Source: Thalassorhabdomicrobium marinisediminis
GTDB lineage: Bacteria > Pseudomonadota > Alphaproteobacteria > Rhodobacterales > Rhodobacteraceae
NCBI RefSeq assembly: GCF_003072065.1
Contig: NZ_QCYG01000004.1
Span: 62,001-126,000 of the forward strand
Reading direction: 5' to 3'
DNA length: 64,000 bases
The notes under the pieces were generated by a model. It was not told where the DNA came from. It saw only the letters and a program-made list of their open reading frames with translations, and ran no database searches. Positions 3,125-62,058 of this stretch are shown in pieces. How positions within the stretch are numbered: position 1 is the first letter of the stretch; each line of letters starts with the position of its first letter. Both the position numbers and the translations under genes were made by a program.

Positions 3125-3147
3125 CTTCTCTGGTTCCCAAATACCTC
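3125..3147 (+). repeat. Dispersed intergenic repeat, copy A (head box only)
   Basis: CTTCTCTGGTTCCCAAATAC followed by CTC: the head box of the repeat family described in the findings, with three mismatches to the best copies and no G+C hairpin after it. It lies in the 159-bp gap between divergent rluB and tadA. Confidence 0.6.
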
Positions 3148-3193
3148 AAATCCGCCCCTTGCCAAAACCACCACCCCCGGCCCATCTACCTGC

Positions 3194-3643
3194 ATGAGTT
3201 TCCGCAGTCACATGGACACCGCCCTTGAGGAGGCCCGCGCCGCCGCCGCGCGGGGTGAGGTGCCGGTGGGGGCCGTCATCGTCGCCCCCACGGGGCAGGT
3301 GGTCGCCCGCGCCGGAAACCGCACGCGCGAGTTGCACGACCCCACCGCCCATGCGGAGATGCTCGCCATTCGGGCCGCCTGCGCCGCGTTGGGGCAAGAG
3401 CGGCTGACCGATCATGCGCTCTATGTGACGCTGGAACCCTGTCCCATGTGCGCGGCGGCGATTTCGAACGCGCGGATCGGGCGGCTCTATTATGGCGCGT
3501 CCGACCCAAAGTCTGGCGGCGTGGCACAGGGCCCGCGGGTGTTCGCGCATCCGCAATGCCACCACGCCCCCGAAGTCTATGACGGGTTGTCGGCGCCGGA
3601 GTGCGAGGCGCTTCTGACCGGGTTCTTCGCCGCTCGCCGCTGA
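3194..3643 (+). CDS. tadA: tRNA-specific adenosine-34 deaminase
   Basis: 149 residues, normal for TadA. It converts adenosine 34 of tRNA-Arg(ACG) to inosine and is usually essential. The zinc and catalytic residues are in place: H53-A-E55 in the HAE motif and C83/C86 in PCPMC. The start at MSFRSHMDTAL was chosen because the reading frame upstream (intergenic, repeat-containing) has no homology-like sequence and TadA proteins begin at this point. It is divergent from rluB and convergent with the next metallo-hydrolase gene, leaving 11 bp between their stops. Confidence 0.95.
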   Translation: MSFRSHMDTALEEARAAAARGEVPVGAVIVAPTGQVVARAGNRTRELHDPTAHAEMLAIRAACAALGQERLTDHALYVTLEPCPMCAAAISNARIGRLYYGASDPKSGGVAQGPRVFAHPQCHHAPEVYDGLSAPECEALLTGFFAARR

Positions 3644-3654
3644 CCGGCGGTGCG

Positions 3655-7755: not shown

Positions 7756-8164
7756 GCGCGGAGGATTGGATGGCCGCGGGCGGGGCAACCCGTTCGAGGA
7801 AAGTCCGGACTCCATCAAGACACGGTGCCGGGTAACGCCCGGGCAGGGCAACCTGACGGAGAGCGCCACAGAGAACAGACCGCCTGTCACACCAGAGGTT
7901 CGCCGATGGAAACCTGTGGCAGGTCAGGGTGAAACGGTGGGGTAAGAGCCCACCGCGGCGGTGGCAACATCGCTGGCATGGCAAGCCCCACCGGGAGCAA
8001 TGCCAAATAGGGGCCGCGCGTGGGCAACCACAGGATCGTCTTGATCCGAGCAGGTCCGGGTTGGCAGCTAGAGGGCGGCAGGCAACTGTCGCCTAAGATG
8101 AATGGTCATCGAATTGCGGGTTACGGCTCACAAGGAACAAAATCCGGCTTATAGATCCTCCGCG
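7756..8164 (+). ncRNA. rnpB: RNase P RNA (alphaproteobacterial type A)
   Basis: Catalytic RNA of RNase P, which matures the 5' ends of tRNAs. Diagnostic conserved pieces are GAGGAAAGTCCGGACTCC near 7797 (P3-P4 region), AGGGCAACCTGACGGAGAG, GAAACGGTGGGGTAAGAG and AGACAGAGCC-equivalent downstream elements. The terminal helix P1 forms from CGCGGAGGA (7757-7765) and TCCTCCGCG (8156-8164), which sets both ends and a length near 409 nt. It starts only 9 bp after the amidase stop codon. Two strong hairpins follow immediately (8166-8189 and 8203-8225). Confidence 0.95.
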
Positions 8165-8165
8165 T

Positions 8166-8225
8166 TTTTCTGGACGAAGGTCCAGAAAAACGTGTGCGCA
8201 AAGCGCGTTTGCAAAGCAAATGCGC
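8166..8225 (+). other. Two perfect or near-perfect hairpins downstream of rnpB
   Basis: TTTTCTGGAC-GAAG-GTCCAGAAAA (8166-8189) is a perfect 10-bp stem with a tetraloop. GCGCGTTTGC-AAA-GCAAATGCGC (8203-8225) is a 10-bp stem with one G-U pair. Neither is followed by a T run on either strand, so they are not standard terminators; they may mark the 3' end processing region of the RNase P precursor. Confidence 0.6.
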
Positions 8226-8344
8226 GGCGTACTCGGGTGTTAAGGCACAACCCACGTGCCCCAAGCCGACAACGGCGACCACACGCCGCCCAAGGTTGCA
8301 CTTTGCCGCCCTCTGCCGCACAAGTCCTGCAAAGGAGACCACCT

Positions 8345-9376
8345 ATGACCTATACCCCCGCCGCTGACCGCTATGACCGCATGATCTATCGCCGCTGTGG
8401 CAAATCCGGCCTCAAGCTGCCGGCCGTGTCCTTCGGCCTGTGGCACAACTTCGGAGAGGGCACGCCGCACCAGATCAAGCGCGAGATGTGCCAGACCGCG
8501 TTCGATCACGGCATCACCCATTTCGACCTTGCCAACAACTACGGCCCCCCCGCAGGCAGCGCTGAAGAGGCTTTTGGCGAGATCCTGCGCACGGATTTCG
8601 CGGGCTACCGGGATGAACTGATCATCTCGTCCAAGGCGGGCTATGACATGTGGGAAGGGCCCTATGGCGAATGGGGGAGCCGCAAGTATCTGATCGCGTC
8701 CTGTGACCAGTCCTTGGACCGGCTGGGCGTCGATTACGTCGACATCTTCTACTCGCACCGGTTCGACCCCGAGACCCCGCTGGAAGAGACCATGGGCGCG
8801 CTGGATCATATCGTGAAGTCGGGTCGTGCGCTTTATGTGGGCATCTCGTCCTACAATTCCGAACGCACCCGCGAAGCGGCTGCGATTCTCAAGGACCTCG
8901 GGACACCTTGCTTGATTCACCAGCCCGCCTACAACATGCTCAACCGCTGGGTCGAACGGGACGGGTTGAAAGAAACGCTTCAGGAGTTGGGCATCGGCTC
9001 TATCGCGTTCACGCCGCTGGCGCAGGGGCTGCTGACGAAGAAATACCTTGGCGGCATCCCCGAGGGCAGCCGCGCGGCGCAGGACAGCTCATTGGATGCG
9101 GACATGATCACCGAGGAGATGATCGAGGCGCTCAAGGGCCTGAACCGGATCGCAGAGGCGCGCGGCCAGACCCTTGCGCAAATGGCGGTGGCCTGGGTGC
9201 TGCGCAACGAAGGCATCACCACGGCGCTGATCGGCGCGTCGAAACCCAGCCAGATCGAGGATTGCGCAGGCGCGGTGATGAACCTCGAATTCTCCGCTGC
9301 GGAGCTGGAAGAAATCGACACATACGCCAGCGATAAGGGGCTCAATCTTTGGGCATCCTCATCCGAAGGCGTCTAA
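8345..9376 (+). CDS. Aldo/keto reductase, YghZ / glyceraldehyde-3-phosphate reductase type
   Basis: 343 residues, cytosolic NADPH-dependent reductase of the KCNAB-like AKR branch. The catalytic tetrad is D61 and Y66 (FDLANNYG), K97 (SSKAGYD) and H138 (FYSHRFD). [20 protein letters not shown] and the NADPH-site [10 protein letters not shown] are characteristic of YghZ, which reduces methylglyoxal and L-glyceraldehyde 3-phosphate; substrate use here is inferred. The start at 8345 has a strong AAGGAGACC ribosome site. The frame is open further upstream, but that stretch overlaps RNase P RNA and is not coding. Confidence 0.93.
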
Positions 9377-9390
9377 CGCGCCGTTTGCTG

Positions 9391-9418
9391 TTGACTCACC
9401 CGCCAAACCGCTTAGAAG
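9391..9418 (+). promoter_or_regulatory. Probable sigma-70 promoter of rpmG
   Basis: TTGACT (9391-9396), 16 bp, TAGAAG (9413-9418), about 60 bp upstream of rpmG. The strong -35 with a weak -10 lacking the final T is the promoter type reported to need CarD in Rhodobacter; a carD gene is present in this window. Confidence 0.5.
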
Positions 9419-9476
9419 GCGGGCTTCAGATGAATTCACGCGGGCGACAGTCGCGCGCAAAACCCGGAGAGAGACC

Positions 9477-9644
9477 ATGGCGAAGCCAACCACGATCAAA
9501 ATCCGCCTGAACTCCACCGCAGGCACCGGCCACTTCTATGTGACCAAGAAGAACGCGCGCACGATGACCGAGAAGATGGTCGTCAACAAGTATGACCCCG
9601 TCATCCGCAAGCACGTTGAATACAAGGAAGGCAAGATCAAGTAA
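9477..9644 (+). CDS. rpmG: 50S ribosomal protein L33
   Basis: 55 residues, beginning [20 protein letters not shown], a complete match to the bacterial L33 pattern. It contains no cysteine, so it is the zinc-independent form of L33. The start has GGAGAGAGACC upstream. It is monocistronic: a sigma-70-like promoter lies just before it and a strong intrinsic terminator just after. Confidence 0.97.
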
Positions 9645-9665
9645 GATCGCTTTCACCCTTACGAG

Positions 9666-9703
9666 ACGGGTCGCCCAGATGGACATCTGCGGCGGCCCGT
9701 TTT
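9666..9703 (+). terminator. Rho-independent terminator of rpmG
   Basis: ACGGGTCGCC (9666-9675) pairs with GGCGGCCCGT (9691-9700, one G-U), with an inner CAGATG-GA-CATCTG stem stacked on it. TTTCGTT follows. It lies 22 bp after the stop codon. Confidence 0.85.
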
Positions 9704-9726
9704 CGTTGTGGGGTGGTTTATGCAGG

Positions 9727-9789
9727 AAGGAGGGGGCGCTGCCCCCGTCGCTTGCGCGACTCCCCCGGGATATTTCTAAAACAAAGATG
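9727..9789 (-). repeat. Dispersed intergenic repeat, copy B (full length with hairpins)
   Basis: Read on the minus strand: head box CATCTTTGTTTTAGAAATA (from 9789), then GGGGGAG, the stem GTCGC-GCAA-GCGAC, and the hairpin GGGGGC-AGC-GCCCCC. It begins about 60 bp after the stop of the BI-1 family gene, in the same direction, so it would be in that gene's 3' UTR. Confidence 0.75.
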
Positions 9790-9847
9790 GGGCTGAACGA
9801 AAAAGGGCCGCCCGAAGGCGACCCTTTGGAATGCGGATGGTCCGGCT

Positions 9848-10624
9848 TTATTCGCGGCTGCCGAGCATTTGCAGCAGGAACATGAACATGTTGATGAAGT
9901 TGATGTAGAGGCTCAACGAGCCCATGATCGCGGATTTCGCCAGCCATTCCTGATCGCCATGCGCCGCATGGGCCACATATTCGCCCTTGATGCGCTGGGT
10001 GTCATAGGCGGTCAGGCCCGCGAAGATCAACAGGCCGATGATCGACACGGCCCAGCCAAGCGCATCCGACTGCAGCCAGATGTTGACGATGGAGGCCACG
10101 ATCAGACCGATCACGCCCATGATCAGGAAGCTGCCCCAGCCGGAGATGTCACGTTTTGTGGTGTAGCCCCAGAGCGACAGGCCCGCGAAGGCGATCGAGG
10201 TGATCAGGAAGACCTGCGCGATGGATGTGCCGGTGAAGGCCACGAAGATCCAGGAGATCGACACGCCCATGGCGGCCGCGAAGGTGTAGAAGAACAGCTG
10301 AGCGCCGGCGGCGGAGATACGGTTGATCATCGCGCCGAACAGAAACACCATGGCGAGCGGCAGGAACATCAGCACCCATTTGAGCGGGCTAAGATAGAGT
10401 GTCGCCCCCAGGTCGGTGAGGTACTGGTTCGCGCCGATCTGGTATTCCGTCGGGATGGTCGAAACCGTCATCGAGCCGATGGCCCAGGCGGCAAGGAACG
10501 TAAGGAACAGGCCGCCGGACATCAGCCCGTAAACCTTGTTCATGTGGGCGCGCAGCCCTTCGTCGATCGCTGCCGTGCGGACGCCAGCAGCCGCTGTCAT
10601 CTGCGGGTTTCTATAGTCAGCCAT
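9848..10624 (-). CDS. Bax inhibitor-1 / YccA family inner-membrane protein
   Basis: 258 residues with seven hydrophobic segments, the fold of the BI-1 (TMBIM) family; bacterial YccA interacts with the FtsH protease and eukaryotic members are pH-sensitive calcium leak channels. Characteristic features are GLTAYDTQRIK near residue 210 and the C-terminal SLSLYINFINMFMFLLQ. The start MADYRNPQMT has GGAGGGACCAA directly upstream; a longer open frame to 10738 lacks a ribosome site. It is convergent with rpmG, separated by a terminator and a repeat copy. Confidence 0.92.
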   Translation of the reverse strand: MADYRNPQMTAAAGVRTAAIDEGLRAHMNKVYGLMSGGLFLTFLAAWAIGSMTVSTIPTEYQIGANQYLTDLGATLYLSPLKWVLMFLPLAMVFLFGAMINRISAAGAQLFFYTFAAAMGVSISWIFVAFTGTSIAQVFLITSIAFAGLSLWGYTTKRDISGWGSFLIMGVIGLIVASIVNIWLQSDALGWAVSIIGLLIFAGLTAYDTQRIKGEYVAHAAHGDQEWLAKSAIMGSLSLYINFINMFMFLLQMLGSRE

Positions 10625-10784
10625 TTGGTCCCTCCAAGGGTGATATTGTTGTCTGAACAGATGCGACGCGCCACGGTGGACGCGCCATACCTTCCTTGGG
10701 TCCGATATTGGCATGTCTGCCCCGATTTTCAATAGCAACCGGGCGGGTATAGGGCTGAATTTGTGCGGTTTCGTACAGGCTGTG

Positions 10785-10979
10785 TCAGGACAGATCCCAG
10801 AACGGGCGCGCGGCCTCGCGGGCGGCTTGCGCCGGCGTCAGGCCCAAATCCCGCAGCCGGTCGTCGTCCAGATCCGCAAGCACCCGACGTTGCTTCCAGA
10901 CGGCGAGGTAGGTGGCCAGCGATGGGGTCAGACGGCCTATGCGTCTTCGTGTGACGGGGGGTGAGACTGTATGGCTCAT
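10785..10979 (-). CDS. DUF1127 small arginine-rich protein
   Basis: 64 residues. The C-terminal half (RRVLADLDDDRLRDLGLTP) is the DUF1127/YjiS-like signature, which in alphaproteobacteria includes small proteins affecting RNA metabolism, phosphate uptake and stress. The start at 10979 was chosen for its AAGGACACGTA ribosome site; a longer version from 11009 is possible. It is transcribed divergently from a LysR-type regulator, and the shared control region contains a 9-bp inverted repeat (see 11005-11065). Confidence 0.85.
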   Translation of the reverse strand: MSHTVSPPVTRRRIGRLTPSLATYLAVWKQRRVLADLDDDRLRDLGLTPAQAAREAARPFWDLS

Positions 10980-11004
10980 TACGTGTCCTTCCGTGATGTA
11001 AGGG

Positions 11005-11065
11005 ATCATTCATATTTCATGTCTTGATGTATGGCGCCGGGTGCGGCATTAGTAAAATGAATGAT
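11005..11065. promoter_or_regulatory. Long-range inverted repeat between DUF1127 and lysR genes
   Basis: ATCATTCAT (11005-11013) and its exact reverse complement ATGAATGAT (11057-11065) lie 43 bp apart in the only A/T-rich stretch of the divergent region. The arrangement suits two binding sites for the LysR-type protein encoded on the right; inferred, not proven. Confidence 0.5.
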
Positions 11066-11093
11066 TTTTAGATAACCTATCAGGGATGGTGAT

Positions 11094-11978
11094 ATGTCGC
11101 GAAATCTGGATATGACGGCGCTGCGGTCTTTCGTCACCGTGGCGGACATGGGCGGGGTCACCAAGGCGGCGGGGGTGCTGAACCTGACGCAATCGGCGGT
11201 GTCGATGCAGCTCAAGCGGCTGGAAGAGAGCCTTGATGCGTCTTTGCTGGACCGGAGCGCGCGGCAGATCGGGGTCACGGCCGAGGGCGAGCAATTGCTG
11301 AGCTATGCGCGGCGGATGCTGGCGCTCAACGATGAGGCGCTGTCGCGGCTCACCGCGCAGGAATATGAGGGAGATATCACGCTGGGTGTGCCCCATGACA
11401 TCATCCATCCTTATATCCCACAGGTGCTCCGCCGCTTCGCCGCCGATTTCCCCCGCGTGCAGATCAACCTCGTGTCCCACCCCAGCAAACGCCTGCGCGA
11501 GAAGTTCGGGCGTGGCGAGTGTGACGCCATCCTCACGACCGAGGACCAGCCCGGGCCGGGGGGCATCTCTCTTGTGACCCTGCCGCTGGTCTGGGTCGGG
11601 GCCGTGGGCGGCACGGCGTGGCGCAACCGTCCGTTGCCGGTGGCCTTTTGCAAGAACTGCATCTTCCGGTCCGGTGTGCTCAAGCGGATGGACGAGGCCG
11701 GGTTCGATTGGCAGATGGTCGTGGAATCGGAATACGACAGCGCGGTGGAGGCCGTGGTGACGGCGGATCTGGCGGTGCATGCGCTGATCAAGGGGGTCTA
11801 TCCCCAGCATACGGCGCCGGTGCCCCACGAAGGCGCGCTGCCGGACCCGGGGAAAAGTCAGATCGTTCTGTACATGCAGGATCGCGACGACCCCGTGCTG
11901 GCCGCGCTGCGCGACATGATCCGACACGCCTATATGTCGCAATGGTCGGTGTCCGACGCGCCGCGCCTTCGGGCCTAG
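11094..11978 (+). CDS. LysR-family transcriptional regulator
   Basis: 294 residues. The N-terminal winged helix-turn-helix (residues 1-60, MTALRSFVTVADMGGVTKAA and NLTQSAVSMQLKRLEESL) is followed by a periplasmic-binding-like effector domain (about 90-290). It binds DNA as a tetramer and usually controls a divergent gene, here the DUF1127 gene. The stop codon overlaps the stop of the convergent oxidoreductase gene by 4 bp. The effector is unknown. It resembles the LrhA/HexA subgroup by its start pattern; moderate certainty on the subgroup. Confidence 0.9.
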   Translation: MSRNLDMTALRSFVTVADMGGVTKAAGVLNLTQSAVSMQLKRLEESLDASLLDRSARQIGVTAEGEQLLSYARRMLALNDEALSRLTAQEYEGDITLGVPHDIIHPYIPQVLRRFAADFPRVQINLVSHPSKRLREKFGRGECDAILTTEDQPGPGGISLVTLPLVWVGAVGGTAWRNRPLPVAFCKNCIFRSGVLKRMDEAGFDWQMVVESEYDSAVEAVVTADLAVHALIKGVYPQHTAPVPHEGALPDPGKSQIVLYMQDRDDPVLAALRDMIRHAYMSQWSVSDAPRLRA

Positions 11979-12940: not shown

Positions 12941-13024
12941 AAGCTGAATTAACCTTGATTTTTCGTATAGATGCGTTGCCAGAGAAGTCTAAAAGATGCC
13001 GCGCCCCAGCGCAATCGCGCGGTT

Positions 13025-13187: not shown

Positions 13188-13206
13188 CAAATAACAGGAA
13201 TAGAAT

Positions 13207-13575: not shown

Positions 13576-13691
13576 CAGGGGCCGCCGGGCGTTGGGCAAC
13601 AGGGGCGATAGGGGCGGCGGCGTTTTGCAGCTTGACCTTCGCACCGGCGCAACGCTACCGCAGGGCCAATTGCGGCCAGAGGATGCGGTAG

Positions 13692-14568: not shown

Positions 14569-14590
14569 AGGTATTTTTGAACCAGAGAAG
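14569..14590 (-). repeat. Dispersed intergenic repeat, copy C (head box)
   Basis: On the plus strand AGGTATTTTTGAACCAGAGA followed by AG. The 20 bp core is identical to copy F at 47130. It lies between two plus-strand genes, about 100 bp before the start of the 8-oxoguanine deaminase-like gene, with no hairpin next to it. Confidence 0.7.
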
Positions 14591-19853: not shown

Positions 19854-19907
19854 CTTCTTTGGTTCAAAAATACCTCGGGGGAGTCCGCAGGACGGGGGCT
19901 GGCCCCC
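19854..19907 (+). repeat. Dispersed intergenic repeat, copy D (full length with hairpins)
   Basis: Head box CTTCTTTGGTTCAAAAATAC (from 19854), then CTCGGGGGAG, stem GTCC-GCA-GGAC, and hairpin GGGGGC-TG-GCCCCC ending near 19907. It starts 3 bp after the folate cyclo-ligase stop codon and runs in the same direction. Confidence 0.8.
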
Positions 19908-19953
19908 ATTTCCACCCTTGCAACAGAGGCCGCTGCTTGATCTACCGGCCCTC

Positions 19954-23397: not shown

Positions 23398-23430
23398 GCC
23401 TCCGGCGGGAGTTTAGGGGTCAGATGAAGG
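23398..23430 (-). repeat. Dispersed intergenic repeat, divergent copy I
   Basis: Minus strand: CTTCATCTGACCCCTAAACT and then CCCGCCGGAGGC. The tail CCCGCCGGAGGC with its GCC-GGA-GGC stem is the same as in copies E and G, while the head box has diverged. It ends 10 bp before the TTG start of the amidotransferase gene. Confidence 0.6.
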
Positions 23431-24365: not shown

Positions 24366-24399
24366 GCGCCTCCGGCGGGGATATTTCTGAAGCAAAGAT
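24366..24399 (-). repeat. Dispersed intergenic repeat, copy E
   Basis: Minus strand: ATCTTTGCTTCAGAAATATC followed by CCCGCCGGAGGCGC, with a CGCC-GGA-GGCG stem. It ends 15 bp before the ATG of the LysE-type exporter gene, in the opposite orientation to that gene. Confidence 0.75.
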
Positions 24400-24414
24400 A
24401 AGGGGCTTTGCGTC

Positions 24415-47127: not shown

Positions 47128-47151
47128 ATAGGTATTTTTGAACCAGAGAAG
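47128..47151 (-). repeat. Dispersed intergenic repeat, copy F (head box)
   Basis: On the plus strand ATAGGTATTTTTGAACCAGA followed by GAAG. The core is identical to copy C. It lies between rpoH and the DUF4389 gene, ending 49 bp before that gene's ATG. Confidence 0.7.
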
Positions 47152-48017: not shown

Positions 48018-48021
48018 CTGA

Positions 48022-52512: not shown

Positions 52513-52549
52513 AGCTGCCAAGGTAGCGCTGCGCGGCGCGCGGGCGAGT

Positions 52550-52571
52550 GAGTTTATCTGGTCAGATGAAG
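52550..52571 (-). repeat. Dispersed intergenic repeat, divergent copy J
   Basis: Minus strand CTTCATCTGACCAGATAAAC, then TC. It shares CTTCATCTGACC and TAAACTC with copy I and also forms the palindrome ATCTG-GT-CAGAT. It lies in the 97-bp gap before the exonuclease gene. Confidence 0.5.
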
Positions 52572-52609
52572 GGGCGGCGGCGCGGGCAGCCGCCTCCGGT
52601 GCACTTGCG

Positions 52610-53566: not shown

Positions 53567-53856
53567 CAGGCGAGGACGCCGGCCAGTTTCATGGCCACGC
53601 CCATGTCGCCATCGACCGCCAGTTTGCCGGTCATGAAGGCCGAGGTGGGGTTCTGTTCCCCTTCGAGAATCGCGCGGAAGGTTTCGGTGTCCGACGACAA
53701 GGTGACGTCGGCCTCTTCATCGGCGACGCGCGCGCCGGCGCTGTCGATCATGATCGCGCCTTCCCCTTCGACGTCGAACTTTGCGGTTCCGTCGAACTCT
53801 TCTCCGGCCATCTTGGCGTTGAGAACCGTAACGGCTTCGGACAATACATCGCTCAT
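53566..53856 (-). CDS. SCP2 sterol-carrier-domain protein
   Basis: 96 residues, a complete stand-alone SCP2 domain (KFDVEGEGAIMIDSAGARVA, LEGEQNPTSAFMTGKLAVDG, MAMKLA-like end). SCP2 proteins bind hydrophobic ligands such as fatty acyl chains. It is coupled to the downstream hydrolase. The ATG at 53856 has AGGAGTTGCACT upstream. Divergent from the TPR protein gene, 93 bp apart. Confidence 0.93.
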   Translation of the reverse strand: MSDVLSEAVTVLNAKMAGEEFDGTAKFDVEGEGAIMIDSAGARVADEEADVTLSSDTETFRAILEGEQNPTSAFMTGKLAVDGDMGVAMKLAGVLA

Positions 53857-53949
53857 AGTGCAACTCCTGCTGGTTTGGCCCTCGGATATGTGAACGAACG
53901 GGCGTTCGGGCCCTCTGGTCTCGTGCGCGTGATGCGCTACACTGGCACT

Positions 53950-54510
53950 ATGGGCCTTCGCAAACAGCTTCTCAATTATACCCTTACGGCACTTCTTGCG
54001 GGAGTGGGGTTTTCCACACCCCTGTACGCGGATGAGGCGCGCGTCGATCAGCTGTTCGAGCAGCTGCGCGCCGCCCCGCCGGAGGAGGTGGACCGCCTGC
54101 AGAACCGTATCCTTGATGAATGGCGCAGGAGCGGGTCGCCCGCCATGGATTTGCTGTTGCGGCGCGGCGAAGACGCGCTGGAGGAGGGGGACGCGGCGCG
54201 CGCGGTGGAGCATTTCAGCGCCCTTGTGGATCACGCGCCCACCTTTGCCGAAGGCTACAACGGGCGGGCGGCGGCTTTCTATCAGCTGGAGCTCTATGGT
54301 CCGGCGATCGACGATCTGCGGCAGGTTCTGGTGCTTGAGCCGCGGCACTTCGGGGCGCTGACAGGCGTGGCCGTGGTGCTGGAGGAGCTGGACCGTTTTG
54401 ACGACGCGCTTGAAGTCTGGCAACAAATCGCCAGTTATGCCCCAGCCGACCCCGAAGTGCTGGCCGTGATCGAGCGGTTGGAAAACCGGCTTCAGGGTCA
54501 ATCACTCTAG
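53950..54510 (+). CDS. Periplasmic TPR protein
   Basis: 186 residues. Probable signal peptide MGLRKQLLNYTLTALLAGVG...LYADEA (cut near 28), then charged helices and three tetratricopeptide repeats (about 70-170: AVEHFSALVDHAPTFAEGYN, AIDDLRQVLVLEPRHFGALT, ALEVWQQIASYAPADPEVLA). Function unknown; envelope scaffolding is typical of such proteins. An in-frame ATG six codons earlier (MRYTGT) is possible. Confidence 0.82.
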   Translation: MGLRKQLLNYTLTALLAGVGFSTPLYADEARVDQLFEQLRAAPPEEVDRLQNRILDEWRRSGSPAMDLLLRRGEDALEEGDAARAVEHFSALVDHAPTFAEGYNGRAAAFYQLELYGPAIDDLRQVLVLEPRHFGALTGVAVVLEELDRFDDALEVWQQIASYAPADPEVLAVIERLENRLQGQSL

Positions 54511-54535
54511 CCGCCGTTGCCCAAGGACCGTTGTC

Positions 54536-57463
54536 ATGAGTTTTCCGCCAAAGTCCCAAGGGCGTGTCACGGCTGTTCTGGGGCCGACCAACACCGGCAA
54601 GACCCACTATGCCATTGAACGGATGCTGGCACACCGCACCGGGGTGATCGGCCTGCCGCTGCGTCTGCTCGCGCGGGAGGTTTACGACCGCATCGTCGCC
54701 GTGCGCGGACCGTCGGTGGTGGCGCTGGTGACGGGGGAAGAGCGGATCGTGCCGCCCCGCGCGGCCTATTGGGTCTGCACCGTGGAAGCGATGCCCGAGG
54801 GCATGGGCGCGGATTTCGTGGCCGTGGACGAGATCCAGCTGTGTGCCGATCTCGACCGGGGTCATGTTTTCACCGACCGTCTATTGCGCATGCGCGGGCT
54901 GCACGAGACGTTGTTCATGGGCGCCGAAACCATGTGGGGGGCCATTGCGAGCATGGTGCCCGAAGCGGATTTCGTGAAGCGGGAGCGGTTCAGCACGCTC
55001 ACGTATTCAGGTTCGAAAAAGATAAGCCGCATGCCCGCGCGCAGCGCAATCGTCGGGTTCTCGGTTGAGAATGTTTATGCCATCGCTGAGCTTCTGCGCC
55101 GCCAGAAGGGGGGCGCTGCGGTGGTGATGGGCGCGCTCAGCCCGCGCACGCGCAACGCGCAGGTGGAGATGTATCAAAACGGCGATGTCGACTATCTCGT
55201 GGCGACGGATGCCATCGGCATGGGGTTGAACCTTGATATCGACCACGTGGCCTTTTCCAGCCTGACCAAGTTCGACGGCCGGCGGATGCGCCCGCTTGCC
55301 CCCAATGAGCTGGCGCAGATCGCCGGGCGCGCGGGGCGGCACATGAACAAGGGCACCTTCGGCGTCACTGGCGAGGCTCCTCTGATCGACGATCAGGTGG
55401 TTGAGGCCATCGAGAACAACCAGTTCGCACCGGTCAAGAAGCTGCAGTGGCGCAATGCGCAACTGCAATTCGGCTCGGTCGCGCGGCTGATCCAGACCCT
55501 GGAAGAACGGACGGACAACCCCTGGCTGACCCGCGTGCGCGAATCCGACGATCTTGCGGCGCTGAAATCCGTCAGCGGCGACGCCGAAGTCACCGCGCGG
55601 GCGACGGACGGACCCTCGGTCCGGCTGCTCTGGGATGTCTGCCGCATTCCCGATTTTCGCGGCATCAGCAGCGCGGAACACGCGACCCTGCTCACCGACA
55701 TCTATAATTTTCTGCACGAACACGGCAAAGTCCCCGACGACTGGTTGGCCGGACGGGTGAACCGGATCGACCGCACCGACGGGGATATCGACGCGCTGTC
55801 CAAACGGCTCGCCTATATCCGCACCTGGACCTATGTGGCGCAACGCAAGGGATGGGTGCATGACGAAAGCCATTGGCGCGGGGCGACGCGCGCTGTAGAA
55901 GACCGCTTATCGGACGCGCTGCACGCGCGGCTGACGGCAAGATTTGTGGACCGGCGGACCAGCGTTCTGCTTCGCCGGCTCAACCAAAAGGAGGGCCTTG
56001 TGGCCGACGTAAACGACAAAGGTGAAGTGACTGTCGAAGGGCAGTTTGTGGGCAAGATCGAAGGCTTCCGGTTCCGGCAGGACAAGAACGCCACACCCGA
56101 AGAGGCCAAGACCCTGCGGGCGGCGTCGTTGCAGGCGCTGGGGCCGCAGTTCCATCTGCGCGCGGACCGCTTTTACAACGCCCCCGACACCGAGATTGAT
56201 TTTACCGAACAGGGTGGCCTGATGTGGGGCACCGAGGCCGTGGGCAAACTGGTGGCATCGAATGACCCGCTCAAGCCAACGGTGCAGGCCTTTGTCGACG
56301 ACGAAGCGAGCGCAGATGTGGCCGAGAAGGTGCAGCGCCGCTTGCAGCATTTTATCGACCGCAAGATCGCCACGGCGTTCGAGCCGATGATCAAGATGCA
56401 AAACGACGAGACGTTGCAGGGGCAGGCCAAGGGCTTTGCCTTCCGTCTGGTCGAAGGCTTCGGCGTCATCCCGCGCGGTGAGGTGGCCGAGGATGTGCGC
56501 GCGCTGGATCAGGACGCGCGCGGCTCTCTGCGCAAGCATGGCGTGCGTTTTGGTCAGTTCACCATCTTCATGCCGCTGCTGCTCAAGCCCGCGCCGACCC
56601 GTCTGCGGCTGGTGCTCTGGAGTCTGTCCAAGGGTCTGGCGGAGTTCCCCGAAGCGCCGCCGCCCGGACTTGTCACCGTGCCGACGGTGCAGGGCGTCGT
56701 CCCGGGCACCTACGCCATGTCGGGCTACCGCGCCGCCGGAGAGCGTGCGATTCGCATCGACATGCTGGAACGGCTGGCGGACATGCTGCGCGATCAGAAC
56801 ACCCGGGCAGGCTTCGAAGCCACGGCGGATATGCTGTCGATCACCGGCATGACACTGGAACAGTTCGCCGACCTGATGGTTGGTCTTGGATACAAGGCCA
56901 CCAAGGGAGAGCGTGAAAAGATGCGAGCCGAACCCCAGAGCGAGAGCCAGACACCCGCCGATGCGGTCATCGATGCAGCCAACCCCGAGGCGGCCCAGGA
57001 CGTCGCACCGGTGGCCACCCGCGACGTCGCCTCGGACAACCCCAACCCGGCCCCGAACCCCGGGCCCAACCCGATCCCGAATCCCGCCCCCGCGCCGAAA
57101 GACATCCCCCCCGTCGCGCCGGACGTTCCGAAAGACGCGCCCACGGACCTGCCGGACCCCGCGCAGCCGCAGAAAGATGCCGCCACCGGGGACGACGCGC
57201 CAGAGATGGAGACCTTCTACACCTTCACCTGGGCCCCGAAGCGGCAAGCGAATCGCCCTCAGGGGGACGGCGACCGCAAGGGCGCGCCGAACGGCAAACG
57301 CGGCGGCAAGCCTCAGGGCAAGGGCCGCGCGCCCGGCAAAGGACAAGGCAAGGGGCAGGGTGGCAAGCCGCAGAACTTCTCCGCCCGGCCGCCCAAGCGG
57401 GAAAAGAAGATCGATCCCGACAATCCTTTCGCCGCCGCGCTGGCCGGCCTGCAAAAGGATTGA
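54536..57463 (+). CDS. SUV3-like DEAD/DEAH RNA helicase with basic Pro/Gly-rich tail
   Basis: 975 residues. Helicase domain 1 has Walker A GPTNTGKT (16-23) and DEIQ (98-101); domain 2 has ATDAIGMGLNLDIDHV and QIAGRAGRH. This is the alphaproteobacterial relative of mitochondrial SUV3, an RNA-degradosome helicase. The middle and C-terminal helical domain resembles the SUV3 core. The last ~180 residues are low-complexity: NP repeats (NPNPAPNPGPNPIPNPAPAP) followed by a Lys/Gly-rich segment, probably disordered RNA binding. It overlaps the next gene by 4 bp. Confidence 0.9.
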   Translation: MSFPPKSQGRVTAVLGPTNTGKTHYAIERMLAHRTGVIGLPLRLLAREVYDRIVAVRGPSVVALVTGEERIVPPRAAYWVCTVEAMPEGMGADFVAVDEIQLCADLDRGHVFTDRLLRMRGLHETLFMGAETMWGAIASMVPEADFVKRERFSTLTYSGSKKISRMPARSAIVGFSVENVYAIAELLRRQKGGAAVVMGALSPRTRNAQVEMYQNGDVDYLVATDAIGMGLNLDIDHVAFSSLTKFDGRRMRPLAPNELAQIAGRAGRHMNKGTFGVTGEAPLIDDQVVEAIENNQFAPVKKLQWRNAQLQFGSVARLIQTLEERTDNPWLTRVRESDDLAALKSVSGDAEVTARATDGPSVRLLWDVCRIPDFRGISSAEHATLLTDIYNFLHEHGKVPDDWLAGRVNRIDRTDGDIDALSKRLAYIRTWTYVAQRKGWVHDESHWRGATRAVEDRLSDALHARLTARFVDRRTSVLLRRLNQKEGLVADVNDKGEVTVEGQFVGKIEGFRFRQDKNATPEEAKTLRAASLQALGPQFHLRADRFYNAPDTEIDFTEQGGLMWGTEAVGKLVASNDPLKPTVQAFVDDEASADVAEKVQRRLQHFIDRKIATAFEPMIKMQNDETLQGQAKGFAFRLVEGFGVIPRGEVAEDVRALDQDARGSLRKHGVRFGQFTIFMPLLLKPAPTRLRLVLWSLSKGLAEFPEAPPPGLVTVPTVQGVVPGTYAMSGYRAAGERAIRIDMLERLADMLRDQNTRAGFEATADMLSITGMTLEQFADLMVGLGYKATKGEREKMRAEPQSESQTPADAVIDAANPEAAQDVAPVATRDVASDNPNPAPNPGPNPIPNPAPAPKDIPPVAPDVPKDAPTDLPDPAQPQKDAATGDDAPEMETFYTFTWAPKRQANRPQGDGDRKGAPNGKRGGKPQGKGRAPGKGQGKGQGGKPQNFSARPPKREKKIDPDNPFAAALAGLQKD

Positions 57464-57828
57464 CGGAAACGGCCGATACGCTGCGGCTGGACAAATGGCT
57501 CTGGCACGCGCGATTCTTCAAATCGCGCGGGCTGGCGGCGGCGCTGGTCAAATCGGGCCGCTGCCGGGTGGACGGGGTGCCGGTCTCGAAACCCGCCCGC
57601 ACCATCGCGCCCGGCGTCGTTCTGACCTTTCCCAAGGAGGATCAGGTCCGCGTGGTCCGCGTGCTCGCGCTGGGCGTGCGGCGCGGCCCGGCCCCCGAGG
57701 CGCAGGCGCTATACGAAGACCTGACCCCACCCGCGCCGCCCAAAACCCAACCGAACGAGCAGCGCGTCGGCGGACGGCCGACGAAAAAGGACCGCCGCGA
57801 CATGGAGACCCTCAAGGGGACACGTTGA
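57460..57828 (+). CDS. S4-domain RNA-binding protein, Hsp15/HslR-like
   Basis: 122 residues. S4 domain at 8-70 (LRLDKWLWHARFFKSRGLAA, GRCRVDGVPVSKPA), then a basic tail (GGRPTKKDRRDMETLKG). HslR recycles 50S subunits that carry nascent chains after stress. The start is a TTG inside the helicase stop (TTGA), so translation depends on the helicase gene. The pair helicase-S4 protein suggests shared RNA-related function. Confidence 0.88.
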   Translation: MTETADTLRLDKWLWHARFFKSRGLAAALVKSGRCRVDGVPVSKPARTIAPGVVLTFPKEDQVRVVRVLALGVRRGPAPEAQALYEDLTPPAPPKTQPNEQRVGGRPTKKDRRDMETLKGTR

Positions 57829-57925
57829 CGCGACCGGGGCATGAGCCCTTGAAGGCGCGCCTCACCGCCGTTACAGAAACGCCAATCGCCAGCCGGCTTT
57901 TGCCGCCAAACATCCGGACGCACCC

Positions 57926-58261
57926 ATGACCTATATCGTCAACGACAACTGCATCGCCTGCAAATATACCGACTGTGTCGAAGTCTGCCCCGTGGATTGT
58001 TTCTATGAGGGGGAGAACATGCTGGTGATCCATCCCGACGAATGTATCGACTGCGGCGTGTGCGAGCCGGAATGTCCCGCCGATGCGATCCGCCCCGACA
58101 CCGAGCCGGACATGGAGAAATGGGTCGAGTTCAACCGCAAATACTCCGAGGCCTGGCCGGTGATCATCACCAAGAAGGACCCGCTGCCCAACGCCGACGA
58201 GATGGACGGCAAAGAGGGCAAGATGGAGCTCTTCTCGGAAAAACCGGGCGAGGGCGGCTGA
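57926..58261 (+). CDS. fdxA: Seven-iron ferredoxin
   Basis: 111 residues. The N-terminal cysteine set [18 protein letters not shown] supplies the [3Fe-4S] cluster and part of the second; [14 protein letters not shown] supplies the [4Fe-4S] cluster. An AYYSEAW-type acidic C-terminal extension follows. Cytosolic electron carrier of unknown specific partner, usually essential in alphaproteobacteria. It lies between the S4 gene and carD, a syntenic group in the Rhodobacterales. Confidence 0.96.
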
Positions 58262-58265
58262 CGAC

Positions 58266-58278
58266 GCCGCGATGCGGC
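58266..58278 (+). other. Small hairpin after fdxA
   Basis: GCCGC-GAT-GCGGC, a 5-bp perfect stem 4 bp after the fdxA stop, without a T run. Weak; possibly an mRNA 3' end stabiliser. Confidence 0.35.
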
Positions 58279-58324
58279 ATCCATGCTGCATGCGCGAATG
58301 CTATGGGAATCACACGATTTTTGT

Positions 58325-58332
58325 GCTATAGT
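58325..58332 (+). promoter_or_regulatory. Probable extended -10 promoter of carD
   Basis: TG-C-TATAGT (58324-58332), about 115 bp before the carD start. No good -35 is seen; a GANTC site (58308) and a CACA-N7-TGTG inverted repeat lie just upstream. The decamer CTATAGTGGC is shared with the region before nrdR (32436-32445). Confidence 0.4.
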
Positions 58333-58445
58333 GGCCTCAATGCTGCGTAATTGCTGATTGAGATGTGACATCACGCTGTCGGGGGCCCTTGGTTCCCGCT
58401 GGCTTTTTGTCGTCTGATGATGCCGCTTTGAGGAAAGGACCGCTC

Positions 58446-58958
58446 ATGGCCAAGAAGAAGAATGAATTCAGCCCCGATGATTATGTCGTCTATCCCGCGC
58501 ACGGGGTCGGCAAGATTGTCTCGATCGAGACACAGGAAGTCGCGGGCTTCGAGCTTGAAATGTTCGTCATCGCCTTCGAGAAGGACAAGATGACCCTGCG
58601 CGTGCCCACGAACAAGGCCGAAGAGGTGGGCATGCGCTCGCTCTCCGCGCCGGATGTGGTGGCGGACGCGATGAAGACGCTCAAGGGCAAGGCCAAGGTC
58701 AAGAAAGCCATGTGGTCGCGCCGGGCGCAGGAGTATGAGCAGAAGATCAACTCCGGCGACCTGATCGCCATCGCCGAGGTCGTCCGCGACCTGCACCGCG
58801 CCGACGACCAGCGCGAGCAAAGCTATTCCGAGCGTCAGCTTTATGAAGCCGCGCTGGAACGACTGACCCGCGAAATCGCGGCGGCGGGCAACGGCAATGA
58901 AACCGATGCCGGCAACGAGATCACCGAAACCCTGCAAAGTCGCGCTTCGGCGGCTTAA
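58446..58958 (+). CDS. carD: CarD-family transcription activator
   Basis: 170 residues. N-terminal RNA-polymerase-interacting Tudor-like domain (1-70, VVYPAHGVGKIVSIETQEVA) and C-terminal DNA-binding helical domain (80-165, with KKAMWSRRAQEYEQKINSGD). CarD stabilises open complexes and in Rhodobacter is needed at promoters without the -7 thymine. Start at 58446 follows TTTGAGGAAAGGACC. A clear intrinsic terminator follows. Confidence 0.95.
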   Translation: MAKKKNEFSPDDYVVYPAHGVGKIVSIETQEVAGFELEMFVIAFEKDKMTLRVPTNKAEEVGMRSLSAPDVVADAMKTLKGKAKVKKAMWSRRAQEYEQKINSGDLIAIAEVVRDLHRADDQREQSYSERQLYEAALERLTREIAAAGNGNETDAGNEITETLQSRASAA

Positions 58959-58980
58959 GTCGTAACGGAACTGACTGAGA

Positions 58981-59009
58981 AGCCGCGCCCTTGGGGGTGC
59001 GGCTTTTTT
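58981..59009 (+). terminator. Rho-independent terminator of carD
   Basis: AGCCGCGCCC-TTGG-GGGTGCGGCT (one G-U pair) followed by TTTTT, 22 bp after the carD stop. Confidence 0.9.
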
Positions 59010-59061
59010 CGTTTTGGGAGAGGTGCACAGGGCCGCAGGCAGGATCGCCTGTGGTTTGCGT

Positions 59062-59096
59062 GCGCCTCCGGCGGGGATATTTTTAAAGCAAAGATG
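59062..59096 (-). repeat. Dispersed intergenic repeat, copy G
   Basis: Minus strand: CATCTTTGCTTTAAAAATAT, then CCCCGCCGGAGGCGC with a CGCC-GGA-GGCG stem. It starts 5 bp after the purD stop codon in the same direction, in the convergent gap with carD. Confidence 0.78.
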
Positions 59097-59101
59097 ACGG
59101 G

Positions 59102-60364
59102 TCAGAGCGCCCGGTGGCCGATGTCGCGCCGATAGAAGCCTTCGGGCCAGTCGATCTGGTCGATCATGGCATAGGCCTTCCCACGCGCCTCTTGCAGGGT
59201 CGCACCGCGCGCGGTGATGTTGAGCACGCGGCCCCCCGTTGCGATAATCTGGCCGTTCTGGATGGCGGTGCCCGCGTGAAACGTCATCTCGGATGCGGTT
59301 TCGGGCAGGGCGTCTAGGCCGCTGATCACAGTGCCTTTTTCGTAAGCGCCGGGATAGCCCTTAGCGGCCATGACCACGGTGAGCGCATGATCTTCGGCCC
59401 AGACCGGCGCGATCGCGGACAGGCGGCGTTCGGCGCAGGCATGCAGCAGATCCAGCACCTGCGCGCCGAGGCGCATCATCAGCACCTGACATTCCGGATC
59501 GCCGAACCGGACGTTGTATTCGACCAGACGCGGCGTGCCGTCCTTGATCATCAGCCCGGCATAGAGGATGCCCTCGAACGGGGTGCCCCGCCGGGCCATC
59601 TCCGCGACAGTCGGCTCGATGATTTCGGTCATGGCGCGTTGGGCGATGGCCTCTGTGAGGACGGGCGCGGGGGAATAGGCGCCCATGCCGCCGGTGTTGG
59701 GGCCAGTGTCCCCGTCGAAAGCGCGTTTGTGATCCTGCGCGGTGCCTATGGGGAGCACGGTCTCTCCGTCGCAGAGAAGAAAGAACGAAGCTTCTTCGCC
59801 CTCCATGAAGTCTTCGATCACCACCTCGGCGCTCGCCGCGCCAAACTGCCCGCCCAGCATGTCGTCGATGGCGGCATTGGCGGTGGCAAGGTCGGTGGCC
59901 ACGACGACGCCTTTGCCGGCGGCCAGACCGTCGGCCTTGATAACAATTGGCACGCCGGTGCGGCTGACGTAATCCTTGGCGGCACTGGCTTCGGTAAAGC
60001 GGGCATAGGCGGCGGTCGGGGCAGCGCAGGCGTCGCAGATGGCCTTGGTGAAGGCTTTCGACGATTCCAGCCGCGCGGCCTCTTGCGAGCAGCCGAAGAC
60101 CAGCAGCCCATCCGCGCGCAGGGTATCGGCCACGCCTGCGGCCAACGGGGCTTCGGGGCCGATGATCACGAAATCCACGGCATTCTCGGCGCAGAACCCG
60201 GCGACCTCGTCACCGTTCTTGATCTCAAGGTCGGCGCATTCCGCGATCTGCGCGATGCCCGCATTGCCGGGCGCCACGAACAGGCGGTCGCATTTGGGGT
60301 TCTGTTTGACCGCCCAGGCGAGGCTGTGCTCCCGCCCGCCGCCGCCCAAGATCAGGATGTTCAT
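59102..60364 (-). CDS. purD: Phosphoribosylamine-glycine ligase (GARS)
   Basis: 420 residues. ATP-grasp enzyme of purine synthesis. MNILILGGGGREHSLAW (N-domain), VIKADGLAAGKGVVVATD, and TGPNTGGMGAYSPAPVL and RFGDPECQ (ATP-grasp) are diagnostic. The start at 60364 is confirmed by the invariant N-terminus; the open frame upstream is the antisense of xseA. Divergent from xseA (67 bp). Confidence 0.97.
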   Translation of the reverse strand: MNILILGGGGREHSLAWAVKQNPKCDRLFVAPGNAGIAQIAECADLEIKNGDEVAGFCAENAVDFVIIGPEAPLAAGVADTLRADGLLVFGCSQEAARLESSKAFTKAICDACAAPTAAYARFTEASAAKDYVSRTGVPIVIKADGLAAGKGVVVATDLATANAAIDDMLGGQFGAASAEVVIEDFMEGEEASFFLLCDGETVLPIGTAQDHKRAFDGDTGPNTGGMGAYSPAPVLTEAIAQRAMTEIIEPTVAEMARRGTPFEGILYAGLMIKDGTPRLVEYNVRFGDPECQVLMMRLGAQVLDLLHACAERRLSAIAPVWAEDHALTVVMAAKGYPGAYEKGTVISGLDALPETASEMTFHAGTAIQNGQIIATGGRVLNITARGATLQEARGKAYAMIDQIDWPEGFYRRDIGHRAL

Positions 60365-60431
60365 ATCGGTTTCCCTTCCGCTTGGCTGCGTTCTAGAGTG
60401 GCCGCCAAAGCAGCACAAGAGCCCGAAAAAC

Positions 60432-61994
60432 ATGCCCATGGACCTGATCGACGAACCGCAAAGCGCTGGCAATACGCCGGAGTTTACCGTCAGCGAACTG
60501 TCTGGCGCGGTCAAACGCACCATCGAAGGTGAATTCGGCCATGTGCGCGTCAAGGCCGAGGTGGGGCGCGTGGTGCGCGCGCGCTCGGGGCATCTGTATT
60601 TCGACCTCAAAGACGACCGCAACGTGCTCGCCTGTACCACGTGGAAAGGGCAGGTCTCCGCCCTGTCGGTGATCCCCGAAGAGGGGATGGAGGTCGTCGT
60701 CTCGGGGCGGATGACCACCTTCGGCAGCCAGTCGAAATACCAGCTGAACGCGACCGAGGTGGCGGTGGCAGGGGTCGGCGCGTTGATGGCGATGCTCGAC
60801 AAACGCAAGAAGGCACTTGCGGCAGAAGGCCTTTTTGCAGCGGAGCGGAAACGCCCCCTGCCGTTCCTCCCCGAGGTGATCGGCGTCATCACATCGCCCA
60901 CCGGCGCGGTGATCCGTGACATTCTGCACCGCCTGAAAGACCGGTTCCCCCGCAAAGTTCTGGTCTGGCCGGTGGCGGTGCAGGGCAAAGCCTGCGCGCC
61001 GCAGGTGGCGCAGGCCATCGCCAGGTTCAACGCGATGACGCCGGGCGGGGCCTTGCCGCGGCCCGATCTGATCATCGTCGCGCGCGGGGGCGGCTCGATC
61101 GAGGATCTTTGGGGCTTCAACGAAGAGGACGTGGCCCGGGCGGCGGCGGCGTCGGATATTCCGCTGATTTCGGCGGTCGGGCATGAAACCGATACCACGT
61201 TGATCGATTACGTGTCGGACCGGCGCGCACCGACCCCATCGGCTGCGGCGGAGATGGCGGTGCCGGTGCGGCTCGACCTGTTGGCGGCGGTGGACCAGCT
61301 GGGCGCGCGCGCCGGTCGCGCCGCGGGGGAGGGGGTGACACGGCGTAAACAGCGTGTCGCCGACCTCTGGCGTGTCGTGCCAAAGCCCGCGCAGCTGACC
61401 GATGATGCCAAGCAACGGTATGATTACTGGTCGGAAAAGCTTGATGCGGCGCTGATCGGGCGGGTGACGGCGGGCCAGATGCAACTGGGCAAGGCAAGCG
61501 GCCTGCTGCGCCCGACCATGTTGGGCAACCGTCTGCGGCAGAACCACGACCGGCTGACCGGGCTGGACGCGCGGCTCGGGCCCGCGCTCGCCCGCTCGAC
61601 AACGCAAGCGCGGCGTGACTTGGCCCAGCAAGCGGGCCGTCTACGCCCCCAAACCTTAGAGGCAAAACGCGCGCAAGCGGAGGAACGTCTGACCGGTCTG
61701 TTGCGCCGCCTGTCTGCCGCCGCCAATGGGCAGGTGGACCGGCACCGCCACCGGCTCGACGGGCTCGACCGGATGCGCGAAACGCTGGGCTATCGGGAAA
61801 CGCTCAAACGTGGCTACGCGGTGGTGCGCGGCGACGGGGCGGTCGTCACAACGGCGAAAGCGGCCAAGGCGGCCCGCAGCCTTGAGATCGAGTTCGCCGA
61901 CGGAACCCTGCGCCCCGACGCCGCCCAGCCCGTCGCCCGCGCGAAGCCTTCGAAACCAAAGCCCCCCACCCCTGAGCAGGGCGATCTTTTCTGA
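60432..61994 (+). CDS. xseA: Exodeoxyribonuclease VII large subunit
   Basis: 520 residues. OB-fold domain (about 17-115, FTVSELSGAVKRTIEGEFGH and VRVKAEVG), catalytic middle domain with PTGAVIRDILHRLKDRFP and ARGGGSIEDLWGFNEE, coiled-coil (about 295-440) and GYRETLKRGYAVVRGDG at the C-terminus. With XseB it degrades single-stranded DNA. Start 60432 or 60438 (both ATG). xseB is not in the window. The last residues are Lys/Pro-rich. Confidence 0.95.
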   Translation: MPMDLIDEPQSAGNTPEFTVSELSGAVKRTIEGEFGHVRVKAEVGRVVRARSGHLYFDLKDDRNVLACTTWKGQVSALSVIPEEGMEVVVSGRMTTFGSQSKYQLNATEVAVAGVGALMAMLDKRKKALAAEGLFAAERKRPLPFLPEVIGVITSPTGAVIRDILHRLKDRFPRKVLVWPVAVQGKACAPQVAQAIARFNAMTPGGALPRPDLIIVARGGGSIEDLWGFNEEDVARAAAASDIPLISAVGHETDTTLIDYVSDRRAPTPSAAAEMAVPVRLDLLAAVDQLGARAGRAAGEGVTRRKQRVADLWRVVPKPAQLTDDAKQRYDYWSEKLDAALIGRVTAGQMQLGKASGLLRPTMLGNRLRQNHDRLTGLDARLGPALARSTTQARRDLAQQAGRLRPQTLEAKRAQAEERLTGLLRRLSAAANGQVDRHRHRLDGLDRMRETLGYRETLKRGYAVVRGDGAVVTTAKAAKAARSLEIEFADGTLRPDAAQPVARAKPSKPKPPTPEQGDLF

Positions 61995-62058
61995 CTTCTC
62001 TGGTTTAAAAATACCTTGGGGGAGGCCCGGACCAGTCCGGGCCGGGGGCAAAGCCCCC
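61995..62058 (+). repeat. Dispersed intergenic repeat, copy H (full length with hairpins)
   Basis: Head box CTTCTCTGGTTTAAAAATAC (61995-62014), CTTGGGGGAG, stem GGCCCGGAC-CA-GTCCGGGCC (62024-62043, 9 bp perfect), then GGGGGC-AAA-GCCCCC (62044-62058) and TT. It starts at the xseA stop and lies in the convergent gap with the AlkB-like gene, so the hairpins may also end transcription from both sides. Confidence 0.85.

Follow-up and report, generated by a model that had tools for sequence, protein, structure and literature searches.

Repetitive extragenic palindromic (REP) sequences, bacterial interspersed mosaic elements (BIMEs) and REP doublets forming hairpins (REPINs) are described, in the parts of the sources drawn on here, as short, extragenic, GC-rich palindromic repeats that occur singly or as inverted pairs, form several families per genome and are species-specific (PMC3733652; PMC3116915). 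Intrastrand-triplex motifs (PIT or BoxC) are another class of intergenic sequences, built of three blocks whose third block mirrors another; the main text that describes them contains no mention of Rhodobacter, Roseobacter or Alphaproteobacteria (Holder et al. 2015, PMC4666352). DNA uptake sequences (DUS) of Neisseriaceae, as presented in the sections consulted, occur in thousands of copies and form dialects that differ between species (Frye et al. 2013, PMC3630211). Here we describe an abundant extragenic element found in a stretch of 64,000 nucleotides (the window) from Thalassorhabdomicrobium marinisediminis (contig NZ_QCYG01000004.1, positions 62,001 to 126,000) and throughout its genome. 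The element resembles REPs and is not one of them, and we tentatively propose that its conserved core is read by one or more sequence-specific factors acting in trans.

The window was searched with the box consensus of a first-pass annotation, allowing up to three mismatches. Exactly eight matches were obtained, against 0.02 expected in dinucleotide shuffles: at 9771, 14572, 24382, 47133 and 59078 on the plus strand and at 3125, 19854 and 61995 on the minus strand. Five fit the consensus perfectly, two have one mismatch and one (3125) has two. These are the eight positions which that annotation had given, with starts within 3 bases of ours; offsets of up to 3 bases arise because the box includes the purine triplet ahead of TATTT. 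In the whole genome (3,432,712 bases in 35 contigs), 74 boxes were found with at most two mismatches, 39 in forward and 35 in reverse orientation, whereas the reversed box pattern gave no match under the same conditions. A 12-base word of a further subfamily, GGTCAGATGAAG, occurs exactly 38 times (reversed control 0), so that the genome holds at least 112 sites in 3.43 Mb. Genes were predicted with our own codon-based caller, which called 89% of the window coding, and none of the 74 boxes lies inside a predicted gene. Stricter patterns gave the same picture, with copies inside genes in 0 of 37, 0 of 35 and 1 of 30 cases for subfamilies T1, T2 and T3, defined below (the single case, L258, overlaps a predicted open reading frame). 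The intergenic position claimed by the first-pass annotation is confirmed, and the box is neither at chance frequency in the genome nor equally common inside genes.

The anatomy of the element was read from the 74 printed T1 and T2 copies and from 30 of the 38 T3 words. A unit consists of an optional GC-rich arm, a purine triplet, TATTT, about three free bases and an 11-base word. The genome contains three subfamilies, which differ in both purine triplet and word: AGG-TATTT-NNG-AACCARAGAAG in T1, GGA-TATTT-NNN-AAGCAAAGATG in T2 and GAG-TTTAT..-GGTCAGATGAAG in T3, in which TTTAT or a similar sequence replaces TATTT. Column counts were made for 37 T1 and 35 T2 copies, which were chosen by pattern, so that their free positions and flanks are the informative part. 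A G-rich stretch is frequent 3' of the word. The region 5' of the triplet is occupied by a C-tract arm, by a GCCTCCGGCGG hairpin or by neither; a simple rule assigned 14, 1 and 24 T1 copies and 22, 11 and 2 T2 copies to these classes, and by eye some of the copies with neither contain other hairpins or slightly different C-tract arms, others no arm at all. The class with a CCTCCGG hairpin, collected by pattern search, numbers 86. What had been presented as one ten-copy family with a head box is a real intergenic repeat family, though one of three subfamilies and at least 112 genomic copies, and its conserved part is of two pieces, the family-wide RRR-TATTT and the genome-specific word, with the GC-rich arm optional. 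Likewise, two copies regarded as divergent forms (23410 and 52550) are genuine copies of the repeat, belonging to the separate subfamily T3 (23409-23429 and 52550-52571). In four loci of Salipiger bermudensis (L078, L083, L094, L106) a further hairpin is present 3' of the word and overlaps with it; by eye, the word-terminal GAAG can pair with CTTC.

Comparison of orthologous gaps revealed that the sites stay and the word changes. The region 8000-27900 of the window was compared with 12 genomes of the genus and the region 44500-64000 with 8, the BLAST matches being mostly 70-80% identical. Nine gaps with a box in this genome were examined, six of them with comparable relatives, and gaps longer than 600 bases were left aside. 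At these six loci, the orthologous gap contains a box in 22 of 51 relatives, and in all 22 on the same strand. The 22 fall among 36 gaps of box-bearing genomes, against none among 15 gaps of the box-poor genomes G007, G008, G013 and G015. Twelve gaps without a box here gave no box in 94 orthologous gaps. Some relatives of the gap at 61995 have longer gaps with extra sequence, and the gap at 19854 in G007 and G008 contains, by eye, apparent degraded remnants of a box. The gap at 24382 illustrates the change of word: it carries T2 in this genome and AAACAAAAGCA in G001; in G009 the word there is of T1 type and in G011 it resembles T3.

Agreement between copies was measured on 25 of them, 19 from relatives and 6 of our own; own copies without comparable relatives were excluded, as were 3 of the 22 relative copies, namely two T3-like copies of G011 with other spacing and the G003 copy at 61995. 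Identity of the word is 0.88 within a genome across loci, 0.71 within a locus across genomes and 0.69 when neither is shared, and no permutation in 5000 reached the observed word agreement. The triplet behaves in the same way (0.83, 0.61 and 0.62, respectively), whereas the free bases do not (0.59, 0.59 and 0.55). Bursts of copying are hard to reconcile with this agreement of words, because copying would carry the free bases along. Neutral age would also be difficult to reconcile with words that agree genome-wide, and the pattern suggests a reader of the word that acts in trans.

The word is a genome-specific dialect. Allowing one mismatch, the word pattern reaches 5 or more copies in 15 of the 37 genomes from one family of Rhodobacterales, compared with a maximum of 3 copies in any of 24 genomes from other families. 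The hairpin form GCCTCCGGCGGRNNTATTT, with the same tolerance, is present in 30 of the 37 genomes (in G035 on the strength of one doubtful match) and in none of the 24. Among 80 records listed, the C-tract arm is present in 47 of 56, against 0 of the 24 from other groups, the groups being judged by record titles; carriers include Salipiger bermudensis and Thalassococcus profundi, both of the order Rhodobacterales. The statement of the first-pass annotation that similar sequences exist in other Rhodobacterales was borne out by both genome and record searches. The sequence following TATTT is CCAAGAAGTG and GAAAATCGAA-like in G019, AAGAGATGAA and AACAGAAGAA in G023, GCAACGAAGAAG and others in G028, and GGCAAAATGAAG in G027. 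Within the genus, exact TATTTNNNAAACAAARNCA occurs 44 times in G001, 38 in G002, 21 in G003, 41 in G004, 23 in G005 and 17 in G011, at most 6 times in the remaining genomes and not at all in this genome or in the control. Its two variable letters are themselves characteristic of the genome: ..GGCA in all 23 matches of G005 and in 36 of 38 of G002, ..GACA in all 17 of G011, and ..AGCA in 14 of 14 among the matches listed for G004 (of 41); in G001 they are mixed. In none of the genomes are the three free bases constant. T3 was counted 24 times in this genome, twice in G011 and never in the other 35. Among the box-poor members of the genus, G007 has 2 matches in all, G008 none, G013 1 and G015 2.

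Placement of the element relative to genes differs between subfamilies. The 74 T1 and T2 boxes lie in convergent gaps (28), same-strand tandem gaps (27), opposite-strand tandem gaps (15) and divergent gaps (4), against a background of 10 divergent gaps among the 36 gaps of at least 60 bases in the window. T1 and T2 avoid divergent gaps and prefer gene 3' ends, often standing 0-20 bases from an opposing stop codon, while T3 shows no such avoidance (8 of 29 in divergent gaps). The first-pass annotation had placed four copies within about 60 bp after a stop codon, in the direction of the preceding gene; this is correct when one reads the element starting at its complement end: at 9771, 19854, 59078 and 61995, the 3' edge of the box is 58, 2, 5 and 0 bases away from an opposing stop codon. 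For 19 of 74 T1/T2 boxes and 16 of 29 T3 boxes, the closest gene upstream is encoded on the opposite strand. Inverted pairs of elements occur, and spacing of the sites is uneven (coefficient of variation 1.33 for all sites, against 1.02 for random ones). No cognate gene was found beside the boxes: the 195 flanking proteins contain 11 scattered paralogue pairs and no recurrent family.

The element is present also in phage-like gene clusters. A scan of IMG/VR with the hairpin pattern gave 67 stretches, many of them in contigs of about 14 kb, and in many of these the element is placed between same-strand terminase and portal genes. The annotated contig L405 contains terminase, portal, head and tail genes (PHROGs); by their size and gene order, we take such "viral" contigs (L365, L379, L385, L399, L403, L405 and others) to be gene clusters encoding gene-transfer agents. 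A set fetched by the portal protein comprised 66 loci, 60 of them with the terminase-portal gap and 57 distinct, and was scanned with a loose caller and a single-base shuffle as control. Nineteen of its gaps were boxed, 16 forward and 3 reverse, compared with 10 of 1140 shuffled gaps; by eye, the call in L461 looks false, and the caller overlooked at least three copies in reverse orientation, in L436, L439 and L443. All 101 distinct gaps, including those selected by the pattern, divide into 44 with a forward element, 8 with a reverse one, 5 with both and 44 with none. In other genomes this one gap thus harbours the element in both orientations and also as inverted pairs.

The C-tract arm has a definite order: purine arm, loop, complementary C arm, linker or second hairpin, and second C tract. 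Among 141 parsed copies, 36 have an asymmetric C arm; in these, the second tract mirrors the first in 12, is a direct copy in none and gives a tie in 24. Examples are GAGGGG/CCCCTC/CTCCCC and GAGAGAC/GTCTCTC/CTCTCTG. The alternative that the second tract is a direct copy of the first, and hence another antiparallel partner for the G arm, was rejected (0 of 12 informative arms). By its sequence, the C-tract arm fits the definition of a PIT motif, the third block being a mirror. A side observation made by eye is that the base following the second C tract seems to track the loop of the first hairpin, CGCTG going with G, CTTTG with A and CTGTCTG with GA (loop CTTTG or CTTG in L016, L028, L040, L066 and L086; loop CTGT(C/T)..G in L051, L060, L131 and L180). 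For the 60 upstream bases, prediction of RNA folding gave a mean z of -1.08 for T1, with 9 of 37 copies below -2, against -0.41 and 6 of 81 for control gaps. T2 (-0.48; 3 of 35) and T3 (0.03; 4 of 30) are like the control gaps. Folding upstream of T1 is somewhat stronger than in control gaps, and the RNA-structure signal is weak overall.

With REPs, BIMEs and REPINs the element shares its shortness, extragenic location, high copy number, GC-rich palindromic part, inverted pairs, several subfamilies per genome and species-specific sequence. It differs from REPs in the sequence that follows the hairpin, which by eye is a triplet of the AGG, GGA or GAG type with TATTT or TTTAT in place of a GTAG or CGTC tag, and in having its conserved core, an A/T-rich box and word, outside the hairpin. 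Unlike in REPs and their associated tyrosine transposases (RAYTs), the words agree by genome at orthologous positions. Searching for the Y1/RAYT transposase (PF01797) gave no match in this genome and any match in 7 of 37 genomes. With neither tag nor transposase, the element is not a member of the REPs, and RAYT-driven mobility was rejected, as this genome has no Y1 transposase. Separately, expansions of Y1 transposases of the IS200 type were observed within the genus, with 24 matches in G006, 48 in G014 and none in the other 17 genomes searched. To the PIT/BoxC motifs, as far as the consulted part of their description goes (PMC4666352), the element is similar in its intergenic position and in the three-block arm with a mirrored third block; it differs in that the arm is optional and in its TATTT box and word, which were not seen for PIT.

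A transcription boundary is one alternative to a word read on DNA: the hairpin arm and U-rich TATTT would end transcription of the gene upstream, and a two-way roadblock would be formed by a protein sitting on the word. As in intrinsic terminators, a GC-rich hairpin is followed by a T-rich stretch, often past a stop codon, and an arm followed by TATTTTT has the look of a terminator; in 70 of 74 cases, T1/T2 boxes are in gaps towards which one or both neighbouring genes point their 3' end, the box edge often closely adjoining the opposing stop codon, and T1 has the somewhat better upstream folding given above. Unlike intrinsic terminators, however, the element has an optional hairpin (by eye, several T1 and T3 copies have no hairpin before the T stretch), carries a genome-specific 11-base word after the T stretch and lies also between genes of one cluster. 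At 59078 it sits behind an existing canonical terminator-like hairpin (58980-59009, AAGCCGCGCC..GGTGCGGCTTTTTT), and a similar hairpin is seen by eye in all 8 relatives compared, independent of the element. G003, G008, G013 and G016 have, by eye, the terminator without the element, and a plain terminator was rejected. A strong terminator is unlikely because the element occurs in either direction between the same-strand terminase and portal genes of one cluster. Placement of T3 in divergent gaps and upstream folding of T2 and T3 at control level speak against the boundary as well, which we regard as unlikely but not negligible. Still less probable is a function in the RNA itself, as an element of 3' untranslated or intercistronic regions composed of a hairpin, a U-A-rich RNase E-like site and a purine-rich Hfq-like tail, or as a target of small RNA. 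RRR-UAUUU with a purine-rich tail presumably resembles sites of the RNase E and Hfq type, the element occurs between genes of phage-like clusters, and the T1 folding may be counted here too; on the other hand, the nearest upstream gene is frequently on the opposite strand, above all in T3, and upstream folding of T2 and T3 is not special. Rfam at gathering score found just RNase P and a tRNA in the window, and at E<=2 six element loci gave one tRNA and one sub-threshold snoRNA match, with no match to the element. The word AACCARAGAAG with a base other than G 12 bases upstream occurs 22 times, always in boxes (one with TGTTT, one with TATTA), and the 30 printed T3 loci of 38 all have GAGTTT ahead. 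As these 22 T1 words, the ones without a G 12 bases upstream, all lie in boxes and none is free-standing, an antisense guide RNA with full complement is unlikely.

Two further alternatives account for the dialects or for the repeats as such. The element might be a DNA-uptake watermark as in Neisseriaceae, where biased uptake and recombination would restore the word locus by locus and dialects would follow the receptor. Its word is, as in DUS, short, fixed within a species and different between related species, and its dialects, the variation tolerated at the free bases, the retention of sites in place and the loss from whole lineages resemble DUS as described in the consulted part (PMC3630211). 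Yet about 112 sites in 3.43 Mb stand against the thousands reported there for DUS (PMC3630211), and uneven spacing, the lack of boxes inside genes, the use of three words by a single genome and attachment to TATTT and arms set the element further apart. ComEC is present in the box-poor G008 and G013 (in G007, an incomplete draft, no match was found), which leaves loss of competence unsupported as the cause of box loss; we consider the watermark improbable. Similarly small is the chance that we are dealing with a plain mobile repeat, a miniature inverted-repeat transposable element or a REP, whose subfamilies would be recent bursts of master copies. Subfamilies, inverted pairs, presence and absence among genomes and the use of either orientation in the same gap, depending on the genome, are what such a repeat would produce. 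Within a subfamily, however, arms and free bases differ and the word is kept (an argument which, in copies chosen by pattern, holds for the free positions only), 22 orthologous copies have remained on the same strand, and RAYT is missing. One element searched against phages gave no match, and against 72,556 plasmid records a single one, in a Bacillus, which is chance-like.

The reading we prefer, with a probability of about 0.4, is that of a REP-like, extragenic, Rhodobacterales-specific element at some hundred or more sites, with a constant RRR-TATTT frame and a core read by one or more fast-evolving, sequence-specific candidate factors. The word would be kept uniform in trans, rewritten in place and left to decay when the factor is lost. 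The core, composed of purine triplet, TATTT, about three free bases and the 11-base word, would serve as the putative recognition site, and the factor or factors are probably proteins, probably acting on DNA. An optional GC-rich arm, either of the mirror-repeat (triplex) type or with the CCTCCGG hairpin, may help extrusion or binding. The whole may behave like a REPIN/RAYT-type system without being a RAYT. Neighbouring mRNA ends might be affected, and such effects and roles at the DNA level are both possible. Very few systems, such as DNA uptake words and recombination hotspots, are known in which scattered sites are rewritten in concert at unchanged positions. Several observations weigh against this proposal. 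No gene for a factor was found by the Y1/RAYT search of the genome or among the flanking proteins, and T1 and T2 prefer gene 3' ends (divergent in 4 of 74), a preference not required of an element that works purely on DNA. At least three words are in use in G011, so that there is not one dialect per genome, and the G003 copy in the gap at 61995 departs from the dialect of G003. The comparison in place is based on 6 loci, 14 of 36 gaps of box-rich genomes are without a called box, and the gap at 9771, which in G002 and G009 has an additional gene and behind it a box in the opposite orientation, exceeds the length limit there and is not counted.

The individual copies of the window illustrate this diversity. 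On the minus strand, the T1 box AGG-TATTT-GGG-AACCAGAGAAG (3125..3146), without C-tract or CCTCCGG arm, occupies a divergent gap. It is followed by a plus-strand T2 element (9732..9789) in a convergent gap, composed of a GGGGGC..GCCCCC hairpin, a second hairpin, a third tract CCCCCG and GGA-TATTT-CTA-AAACAAAGATG. The plus-strand T1 box at 14569..14590 has no GC arm; its orthologous gap is boxed in G001, G002, G003, G011 and G016, with differing arms or words. A T1 element with C-tract arm (19854..19909, minus strand) lies 2 bases past the stop codon of a plus-strand gene and has orthologous copies in G001, G002, G003, G005 and G017. The T3 element GCCTCCGGCGG-GAG-TTTA-GGGGTCAGATGAAG (23398..23429, plus strand) and the T3 box GAG-TTTATCT-GGTCAGATGAAG without hairpin (52550..52571, plus strand) are the two formerly divergent forms. 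T2 elements with the GCCTCCGGCGG hairpin lie on the plus strand at 24368..24400, in the gap occupied by other words in G009 and G011, and at 59064..59096, 54 bases downstream of the canonical terminator. A plus-strand T1 box without C-tract or CCTCCGG arm (47130..47151) follows a gene of the sigma-70 family, and a minus-strand T1 element with C-tract arm (61995..62058) begins directly at the base that follows the stop codon of the gene for the large subunit of exonuclease VII. The ten neighbours of these copies that were scanned belong to ordinary Pfam families. The RNAs identified by Rfam are the class A RNase P RNA (7758-8167) and a tRNA (43683-43756), both on the plus strand.

The element is a frequent intergenic feature of Rhodobacterales, so far unnamed in the literature searched: exact-string and topic searches found no description of it, which is weak evidence as most subscription journals were not covered. 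If a factor reads the words, it would be a fast-evolving sequence-specific binder whose target code could be read directly from many genomes, with the box-poor sister lineages as natural controls. The presence of the element also in the terminase-portal gap of clusters similar to gene-transfer agents means that it may bear on gene exchange in Rhodobacterales.

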